This document shows, piece by piece, positions 186-18,237 of a DNA stretch of 64,000 nucleotides. Source of the stretch: Balneicella halophila (GTDB lineage: Bacteria > Bacteroidota > Bacteroidia > Bacteroidales > Balneicellaceae); NCBI RefSeq assembly GCF_003096835.1, contig NZ_QENZ01000004.1:372001-436000 (forward strand), written 5' to 3'. Both the position numbers and the translations under genes were made by a program. The notes beneath the pieces were generated by a model. It ran no database searches and had not been told where the DNA came from. It was given only the letters and a program-made list of their open reading frames with translations. Positions within the stretch are counted from its first letter, which is position 1. Every line of letters starts with the position of its first letter.

Positions 186-546
186 ACAAAGATGAAAAAG
201 TTATAAGAAGACTAATTTACATTTTTTTGTTCAGTTTTCGGTCAAGCGTAGGCAAAAAATAGCTCTTAAGTCTCATACAAATTTCGTTTTTACTAATGGC
301 TTATTTTTGCATGGCACTCTACTCGTTTATTAAAGCCAAAGTTAATAAATTTCCATATATCGTTATCTTTTTGGTTGTAATATCAACGCTTCCAAGGTCT
401 GTCCTGCACTACGTGATAATTTCAACGGATAATTTTTACTTTTTCATTGTTAATTTTTCATTACATGACAATGGTTGCGTGAGTTTCTTCGCTTTGCTCA
501 GAAGGACAAAAATATTGTAAACTAGATACTGATAAACTAAGCAAAT

Positions 547-626
547 TAGCCCCGATTGTAGTGTATATCCTTTTTGTGGGAGGATTGGTGCGAAAAGGGA
601 AAAAAGATAGGAACGGAAAGCGGGAA
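547..626 (+). ncRNA. Candidate structured RNA or repeat element of a type recurrent in Bacteroidota intergenic regions
   Basis: The element begins AGCCCCGATTGTAGTG and ends GGAAAGCGGGA. CCCG at 551-554 can pair with CGGG at 621-624. TATC (566-569) plus TTTTT (571-575) can pair with AAAAA (601-605) plus GATA (606-609), leaving a variable centre. From memory, very similar GCCCCGATTGAAG...AAAAGATA...AGCGGGA blocks occur repeatedly between genes of flavobacteria, with variable central hairpins. This could be a small RNA family or a dispersed palindromic repeat. Only one copy was noticed in this window, and the strand is assumed. Confidence 0.4.
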
Positions 627-713
627 AGTGTATGCTAATAACGGAAAACGTACCGCTACTAAATCATAAAAATAGTTTCTCAACACAAATGATTCGTTCT
701 GTTTCAAATACCT

Positions 714-14899: not shown

Positions 14900-15742
14900 A
14901 TGACTTTAAAAGAATTTTATAAACAAGGAGAAGAGAAATTAGCCAAACTTTACAATAGTAATGAAAGTCGTGCAATAACTAAACGCATAGCCTCCTACCT
15001 GCTAAAATACAGCGACTCTGACTTGTTGCTATCACAAAATGAAGCTTTAAAGTCTGAACAATTACAAGCTTTAGAAAAGTCTTTGGAAGAAGTAGCTACA
15101 GGTATGCCAGTCCAATATGTTTTAGGCGAGACCACTTTTTATGGCTATGATGTATATGTTGAGCCGGGAGTGCTTATCCCACGTCAAGAAACAGAGGAGC
15201 TCGTCGATTGGATTATACAAAGAGAATCAGAAATCAACCAAATCTTAGATATAGGTGTCGGAAGCGGTTGCATTACTATAGCCCTAGGCAAGCATTTTAA
15301 ACGAGCACATTGCACGGCTCTAGATATCTCGCTAGATGCTCTTGATCTCGCAAGAGAAAACTGCGATAGGTATAGTCTGCGTCCTACATTCCTTTATGCT
15401 GATGTATTAAAATGGGAAACTTATGGTTTAGGGAAATATGATGTTATTGTCAGTAATCCTCCTTATATCCGCGAATCAGAAAATTCGCAGATGCACCCAA
15501 ATGTATTAGATTATGAGCCTGACACAGCCTTGTTTGTCACAGATGAGAAGCCACTTTTGTACTATGAAGCAATTGCAGATTTAGCTACTGAACATTTGAA
15601 TGATAACGGTGCTCTGTATTTTGAAATAAATGAAGCACTGGGAAAAGAAACTATAGATTTGCTGGATAGTAAGGGCTATAGAAATATAGAACTTCGCAAG
15701 GATATCAACGGTAAGGATCGAATGATAAGAGCGACACGCTAA
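14900..15742 (+). CDS. prmC: Release factor glutamine N5-methyltransferase PrmC (HemK)
   Basis: This enzyme methylates the GGQ glutamine of peptide release factors. The 280-residue protein has a helical N-terminal substrate domain (1-80), the SAM-binding loop ILDIGVGSGCITIALG (115-130) and the diagnostic SNPPYI (185-190). The LIPRQETEELVDW segment (92-104) is also typical of PrmC. Its ATG is 3 bases after the stop of the RSH gene, so the two are one transcription unit. No plus-strand terminator with a T-run follows: the hairpin downstream is oriented for the other strand. Confidence 0.95.
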   Translation: MTLKEFYKQGEEKLAKLYNSNESRAITKRIASYLLKYSDSDLLLSQNEALKSEQLQALEKSLEEVATGMPVQYVLGETTFYGYDVYVEPGVLIPRQETEELVDWIIQRESEINQILDIGVGSGCITIALGKHFKRAHCTALDISLDALDLARENCDRYSLRPTFLYADVLKWETYGLGKYDVIVSNPPYIRESENSQMHPNVLDYEPDTALFVTDEKPLLYYEAIADLATEHLNDNGALYFEINEALGKETIDLLDSKGYRNIELRKDINGKDRMIRATR

Positions 15743-15744
15743 AA

Positions 15745-15784
15745 ATAAAAAAAGGACTGTCAGAGTGAGAGAAAGACAGTCCTT
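15745..15784 (-). terminator. Rho-independent terminator of a minus-strand transcript
   Basis: AAGGACTGTC (15752-15761) pairs perfectly with GACAGTCCTT (15775-15784). Only on the minus strand is the stem followed by a T-run (TTTTTTTATTTTT). It therefore ends a transcript arriving from the riboswitch side, not the prmC message. Confidence 0.85.
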
Positions 15785-16008
15785 GAAATACCCCTTATGA
15801 TGTATGTGAGAGGATAATTTGGTAACATTAGCTTGAAACACACTACACCATCGCATGAAAAGTAACACAAAAAAGGTATTAATTTTCTAATATGTTTTGG
15901 GTAACTGAATGTAATTTTATGTATCAGTAATACCCTATATTTAACTATTCATCATTGTTCTTCTAAGTGGTTGTCTTGTTAAATTTCCGAACGCAACAAC
16001 AGCATAAT

Positions 16009-16163
16009 GTGATAGGTAGGTCTTCTGACTTGTTCCGAACCATCGACCTTCCCAGTTAAACTAGTGGTCAAAGAATTGTGGTTCTTTTTTAGGAACTTAC
16101 AGCAGCGGAATCTGTTTACGACTTTCACGTAATTCCCTGTTAGGCTATTAAGCACCTCATCAC
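16009..16163 (-). promoter_or_regulatory. Cobalamin (vitamin B12) riboswitch aptamer
   Basis: Read on the minus strand it contains, in order, GAGGTGC, CAGGGAATTACGTGAAAGTC, CGCTGCTGTAAG, CCACTAGTTTAACTGGGAAGG (split across the junction) and AAGTCAGAAGACCTACC. These correspond block by block to the conserved core of the cobalamin riboswitch: the AGGGAA...GTGAAA segment, the CTGTAAG box, the CCACT...GGGAAGG stem and the AAGxCxGxAGACCxxCC box. The closing P1 helix is also visible, GTGAT-AGGT with ACCTATCAC (16009-16017). The identification is firm even though no B12 gene follows. Confidence 0.93.
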
Positions 16164-16167
16164 GTTG

Positions 16168-16175
16168 CGAATATA
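16168..16175 (-). promoter_or_regulatory. Promoter -7 element TATATTCG for the riboswitch RNA
   Basis: TATATTCG on the minus strand ends 4 bases before the first base of the aptamer P1 helix, exactly where a transcription start would be expected. This indicates the riboswitch still has a functional-looking promoter. Confidence 0.6.
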
Positions 16176-16176
16176 G

Positions 16177-18237
<2,061 letters not shown>

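Follow-up and report, generated by a model that had tools for sequence, protein, structure and literature searches.

The closest described relatives of the locus reported here are B12 riboswitches that either precede uptake genes or lie within RNAs with no coding gene behind the switch. In Bacteroides thetaiotaomicron, BtuB-BtuG pairs under B12 riboswitches make up the uptake system (excerpt of PMC10404256), and the L5-L13 kissing loop of the cobalamin riboswitch is described as sensing the bound state (excerpt of PMC9600662). The Listeria RNAs Rli55, about 450 nt at full length, and AspocR act via an ANTAR element or as antisense, and B12-dependent termination yields a shorter form of each (PMC8079631). 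Among the papers listed in literature searches, none concerned an orphan B12 riboswitch beside ligA.

We analyzed a 64,000-nt stretch of the Balneicella halophila genome (here, the window; contig NZ_QENZ01000004.1, positions 372,001 to 436,000). An initial annotation had described a B12 aptamer in it with a promoter in front, a terminator behind, and no gene in between, and had offered two explanations, a B12-regulated small RNA or the remnant of a lost gene. Sequence alone is unable to choose between them; relatives help, and they favor the remnant, and the annotation's argument for continued use is weak. We conclude that the window probably retains, in full, the leader of a BtuB-BtuG uptake operon that once stood divergent from ligA and whose coding genes were deleted.

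Anatomy of the leader

The leader can be read directly in the window, between prmC and ligA, which are convergent and divergent neighbors, respectively, as first annotated. Its features, with the flanking genes, are given below.

14900 to 15742, plus strand: prmC, the convergent neighbor, which ends directly behind the terminator
15740 to 15784, minus strand: intrinsic terminator, minus-oriented only (stem 15784-15775/15761-15752, U tract 15751-15740)
15786 to 15940, minus strand: anonymous AT-rich stretch of ∼155 nt with no coding signal, excess structure, remnant, or convincing homologue
15941 to 15955, minus strand: first frame after P13 in the sequence, four codons (ATG ATG AAT AGT TAA)
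15970 to 16000, minus strand: P13 hairpin, the expression platform, from folding and sequence; its loop holds L13 CGGAA (15989-15985)
15998 to 16175, minus strand: full-length cobalamin riboswitch aptamer (RF00174, 80.9 bits versus a gathering score of 31.5)
16106 to 16110, minus strand: L5 kissing-loop bases TTCCG, complementary to L13 CGGAA
16168 to 16175, minus strand: -7 promoter box TATATTCG at the 5' end of the transcription unit, with one mismatch to TAnnTTTG
16231 to 18237, plus strand: ligA, the divergent neighbor and syntenic anchor, which starts 56 nt from the riboswitch

The Rfam cobalamin model matched end to end at 16175-15998 on the minus strand (model positions 1 to 189 of 189; E = 2.4e-18); the aptamer originally placed at 16009-16163 is therefore real and full length, but that span was slightly too short. 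Aligned with riboswitches of the same order (128 in all), it deviates at 5 of 58 conserved columns, and 12 of the 128 deviate more, including the gene-bearing switch L004 of the same genome. A count by eye of nonstandard pair marks in the Rfam alignments gave ∼16 for the window versus ∼12 to 28 for six gene-bearing switches. The window riboswitch is an ordinary member of the RF00174 family. It is predicted to bind a corrinoid, and there is no gene in cis for it to control.

The consensus of the -7 promoter box is TAnnTTTG, a promoter type outside the coverage of the sigma-70 scan of the window. Among the riboswitches of the order, the box is perfect at this place in 104 of 128 and has at most one mismatch in 117 of 128. 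The annotated promoter directly before the aptamer is borne out by the near-consensus TATATTCG, although the word "intact" slightly overstated a box with one mismatch. On the plus strand, only three bases separate the end of a perfect box (TACATTTG, window 16220-16227) from the ligA start codon (ATG, 16231), so that the ligA message would be nearly leaderless.

An interval without a gene

The minus-oriented terminator, reported ∼225 nt behind the aptamer, was found at 15784-15740. Its stem has 10 pairs and a 13-nt loop (15784-15752; −15.1 kcal/mol; z = −5.2; equaled by none of 200 shuffles), and the U tract at 15751-15740 is present on the minus strand only. A simple terminator scanner found none here because it allowed loops of 3 to 8 only. 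The complete predicted transcript, aptamer included, has a more stable fold than 99 of 100 shuffled versions, and within the full-length fold the terminator stands as a hairpin of its own.

Across the ∼180 nt between the P13 platform and the terminator, we detected no coding signal, protein remnant, excess structure, or convincing homologue. Based on the frame list and hexamer scores, there is no credible gene between aptamer and terminator, only short frames; the three frames of this gap score −0.91, −0.66, and −0.60, far below the window's genes (5th percentile, 0.37), which upholds the annotation on this point. The spacing from L13 to the first start codon is 29 nt in the window versus 14 to 15 nt in three other genomes (G021, G042, and G048), so the four-codon frame need not hold the old start codon. 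A search for degraded remnants of a transporter gene detected none: with an HMM built from eight BtuB C-termini, 199 of 1,000 shuffles scored as well. On that basis, a frame reading NYPL...RGIS before the terminator was dropped as a BtuB C-terminus. Matches of the gap in tblastn (best E = 0.001) fell on both strands with unrelated queries and were taken as chance.

Nor did the gap appear conserved or structured as an RNA; conservation of the segment 15785-16008 as RNA had been proposed in the initial annotation as support for a small RNA. Its fold does not exceed that of shuffles (z = 0.16), and Rfam matches in it are sub-threshold only, none reaching the gathering level. We found no convincing homologue in 393 genomes, among which the window's family is represented by its own genome only. 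In a DNA search that scored up to two top candidates from each genome, 20 of the 393 genomes matched, own included; the matches in the other 19 span 20 to 53 nt with E values of 4.5e-4 or worse and were read as chance. Searching with the whole leader gave matches in 24 of 60 genomes, again own included. Those in the others are parts of the aptamer, and one genome, G010, matches 42 nt of the gap.

Riboswitches beside ligA in relatives

We sought ligA in 149 genomes of the order, found it in 141 (E ≤ 1e-100), and scanned all 141 for RF00174, with filters strict enough that weak matches may be lost and with contig ends that may hide pairs. In 6 of the 141, the window (56 nt) included, RF00174 lies 56 to 147 nt upstream of ligA and divergent from it. 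The five others, from four families, are G021 and G135 (one family), G014, G042, and G037. No RF00174 match lies within 1 kb of ligA in another orientation in these 141 genomes; one in G071 is 1.0 kb away, with a gene between. About 0.006 such arrangements would be expected by chance (a rough estimate that assumes one genome size), which means that it was inherited or repeatedly selected.

In G021, G135, G042, and G037, the ligA-linked switch is directly observed to precede three consecutive genes, for a TonB receptor (BtuB), a beta-propeller (BtuG), and a third protein that, as judged by eye, is a sorted surface protein. The receptor of G021 matches a solved BtuB (E = 2.6e-46), and its best NCBIfam model is TonB-B12, but below the curated cutoff. 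Among solved structures, the G021 propeller hits chains labeled as YncE family or surface layer protein (E = 1e-40), several of which share structure entries with BtuB; we take these chains to be BtuG. DUF5074 is present in all four propellers. The four BtuB proteins are 29 to 50% identical over 86 to 98% of their length, and the four BtuG proteins are 40 to 61% identical. In G014 (L278, G014:C154), P13 of the switch is immediately followed by an 11-codon frame, and a DUF4465 gene comes next; this may be a half-eroded BtuBG operon. A transporter gene at the place of the window's empty interval, which the initial annotation had named as a sign of gene loss, is thus found in three other families, behind riboswitches that point away from ligA, but the prmC side has no counterpart.

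This last point reflects the neighborhood of prmC, which lies within 12 kb of ligA in none of the 132 other genomes of the order in which both genes were found, many of them fragmented. Among the matches listed, we examined 80 prmC loci (42 to 52% match; the closest records may be missing), of which 10 have ligA within 6 kb; by their titles, these are mostly Flavobacteriaceae. The proximity of prmC and ligA in some Flavobacteriaceae counts against a lost operon and bears on the order of events. In the 9 of these 10 loci that were scanned (all but L044), no Rfam riboswitch match reached the gathering level. A B12-box pattern beside ligA in Aquimarina (L112) was rejected on the same ground.

The window shares its L5-L13 pair (TTCCG/CGGAA, five pairs) with the ligA-linked, gene-bearing btuB leaders of G021 and G135, which counts in favor of a lost operon, and also with G004, unlinked to ligA, which counts against it. 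In the commonest form, L5 ends in CCCG (104 of the 119 riboswitches whose L5 could be read). For 71 of the 104, CGGG follows the B12 box at a distance of no more than 50 nt; many others differ, with, e.g., CGAGGA. Four of four L5 loops of the TCCG type face CGGA, and three of four of the CGCG type face CGCG. Because gene-bearing btuB leaders share it, the window's pair is no proof of use or selection after gene loss and may be older than that loss, which takes much of the force from the initial argument that intact conserved blocks speak for continued use.

The P13 hairpin of the window, folded alone, was not above shuffles in stability (145 of 200 as good). Its form, GTTCGG...AAC, is found in 7 of 125 other riboswitches, namely, in 3 of 4 that are ligA linked versus 4 of 121 that are not (Fisher P = 4e-4, for a pattern chosen after viewing the window). 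All seven precede a BtuB-type gene, three of these genes being the queries themselves. Without the query genes, comparing the remaining 4 with the remaining 118 switches, the link between this P13 form and btuB gave Fisher P values of 0.004 (blastp) and 0.019 (phmmer). Since the pattern was picked after the window had been viewed, we regard this association as support and not proof. By overall identity to the window aptamer, four ligA-linked switches rank 16, 37, 90, and 100 of 127, and that of G071 ranks 69; the window does not group with the ligA-linked switches, which counts against a lost operon, although identity is a weak signal at such distance.

Other B12 riboswitches of the genome and the order

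The genome that holds the window has six RF00174 matches, five above the cutoff, and only the switch in the window has no gene behind it. What follows the others is a TonB receptor, a tetrapyrrole-methylase operon, a Peripla_BP_2/FecCD uptake cluster, and an Asp-Al_Ex permease. Siderophore and heme models outscore B12 models for the uptake genes of this genome, and the sole model above its own cutoff is the siderophore one for a single receptor. In the assembly, which is 98% complete, we found no close copy of the ligA-linked BtuB, the best match being 29% identical over 192 residues. Two of the switches (L003/L006; G000:C5:252395-252752) stand in tandem, are alike over their readable part, and are separated by a run of N; the gene behind them is a Peripla_BP_2 gene whose best NCBIfam model, heme IsdE, falls below its cutoff. 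A Flavo-1 RNA (RF01705) lies at 544-631 (plus strand) of the window and another at 1339-1428 of L002, immediately ahead of the switch that precedes the tetrapyrrole-methylase operon.

We surveyed the order for orphans, starting from 130 RF00174 matches in 80 genomes; 129 were used (that of G069 was left out), contig ends truncate two loci (L154 and L223), and 127 were readable. Any same-strand frame of at least 80 codons was called a gene, with no homology check. Once the flagged loci had been read, three of the 127 switches counted as orphans: the window, L148, and L131. In L131 (G028:C22:17487-17680, minus strand), the switch is followed by ∼340 nt with only short frames and then a strong terminator. 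L140 and L147 were rejected as orphans, with ribonucleotide-reductase-like and TonB genes behind them (named by eye), and L208 was rejected for a frame at 225 nt. Among the riboswitch loci, the distance from aptamer end to first start codon forms a near group at ∼16 to 60 nt and a larger group around 100 to 120 nt, and a terminator-like hairpin precedes the gene in 27 of 120 loci versus 7.1 expected from mononucleotide shuffles.

One of the three orphans has a counterpart in a sister genome, with conservation of the 3' part. In two genomes of one genus, orphan B12 switches have different neighbors (L271:3542-3919 in G024 and L266:1519-1903, minus strand, in G425). In both, conservation continues behind the switch in a 3' block (CATAGTCT...) and in the CTAAGTGATTAG tip of the terminator hairpin that comes next, making this element a candidate B12-governed small RNA. 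A model of the element gave 3 matches in 119 genomes of that family and was true in 2 of the 119; the third, in G426, has no riboswitch and looks like a terminator match.

Origin of the orphan leader

Based on the BtuB, BtuG, and third genes carried behind the switch by ligA-linked relatives, we infer a past BtuBG operon at this locus, its deletion, and an RNA that is now inert. A BtuB-BtuG vitamin B12 uptake operon would once have stood divergent from ligA, and its coding genes would have been lost in the window's lineage, leaving the promoter, aptamer, kissing-loop platform, four-codon frame, ∼155 nt of anonymous sequence, and terminator. With no degraded coding remnant, a clean deletion is implied. 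If transcribed, what is left would be a B12-binding RNA of ∼420 nt, a switch with no coding sequence to control. The partly eroded look of the G014 locus and the lack of a close copy of the ligA-linked BtuB in the window's own genome also count for this history, and the 29-nt start spacing and the undetectable protein remnant count against it, as do an aptamer and terminator as intact as a working RNA would have.

The main rival to this history, which we consider unlikely, is that the leader was kept after gene loss as a ∼420-nt B12-responsive small RNA that pairs with targets or sequesters a protein, like Rli55. It would account for the joint presence of a near-consensus promoter box, aptamer, L5-L13 pair, and terminator, for a pair-mark count inside the range of gene-bearing switches, and for the stable fold of the whole transcript, to which the aptamer contributes. 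Recurrence of orphan switches (3 of 127 readable, the window included) points the same way, as do the G024/G425 orphans, which keep a conserved 3' part and terminator amid different neighbors. The stretch behind the window's switch, however, shows neither excess structure nor an Rfam match at the gathering level nor a convincing homologue, and the sole terminator found lies far behind the aptamer and not nearby, where B12 could switch it. Function of the window transcript as an RNA is thus possible but unsupported.

B12-controlled antisense, with terminator read-through covering prmC as AspocR covers pocR in Listeria, is suggested by the convergent prmC gene ending directly behind the terminator. 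Since the terminator stands before prmC, this would need leakage, and the hairpin forms separately in the full-length fold; the arrangement with prmC is also not conserved in the order, so we judge this role very improbable. A start codon placed 29 nt behind L13, together with a 22-codon frame that overlaps the terminator, could be taken to mean that the switch controls a very small protein, an idea hard to credit when the first frame has four codons and all three score strongly negative by hexamers. It is likewise barely plausible that the gap is an assembly error and that the operon is present in the real chromosome: the assembly does have a stretch of N elsewhere, beside the riboswitch L003, but none in the prmC-ligA interval, and at 98% completeness it contains no BtuB close to the ligA-linked type.

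Returning to the loss of a BtuBG operon, an apparent regulatory small RNA can here be explained through synteny as the leader of that operon, which cautions against hastily naming orphan riboswitches small RNAs. The B12-uptake operon beside ligA is a recurrent arrangement in the order, and loss of genes under a retained leader is a likely route by which riboswitch-governed RNAs could arise. The interest of the locus lies in its history and in the recurrence of orphans and not in the riboswitch itself. A broader and distinctly speculative extension, which we think doubtful, is that loss of B12-uptake genes in Bacteroidales repeatedly leaves freestanding riboswitch transcripts that are still regulated, some of which are now B12-responsive regulatory RNAs, the window representing an early stage and the G024/G425 RNAs, whose 3' part is conserved, a later one.

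Comparison with known systems

With the Listeria RNAs, the window shares a B12 riboswitch that no coding gene follows, and termination of the transcript. It differs from Rli55 and AspocR in that no Rfam match was found in its 3' part and no early terminator was found, and in that its transcript would overlap no neighboring gene before the terminator. The likeness to RF00174 btuB leaders of Bacteroidota extends to the aptamer, complementary L5 and L13, P13, and a promoter box at the aptamer 5' end, but those leaders precede a coding gene and transcription from the window would end ∼225 nt behind the aptamer. As in the BtuB-BtuG loci of B. thetaiotaomicron, the same gene pair stands behind the switch in four of the five ligA-linked relatives, whereas the window has neither gene at that place.
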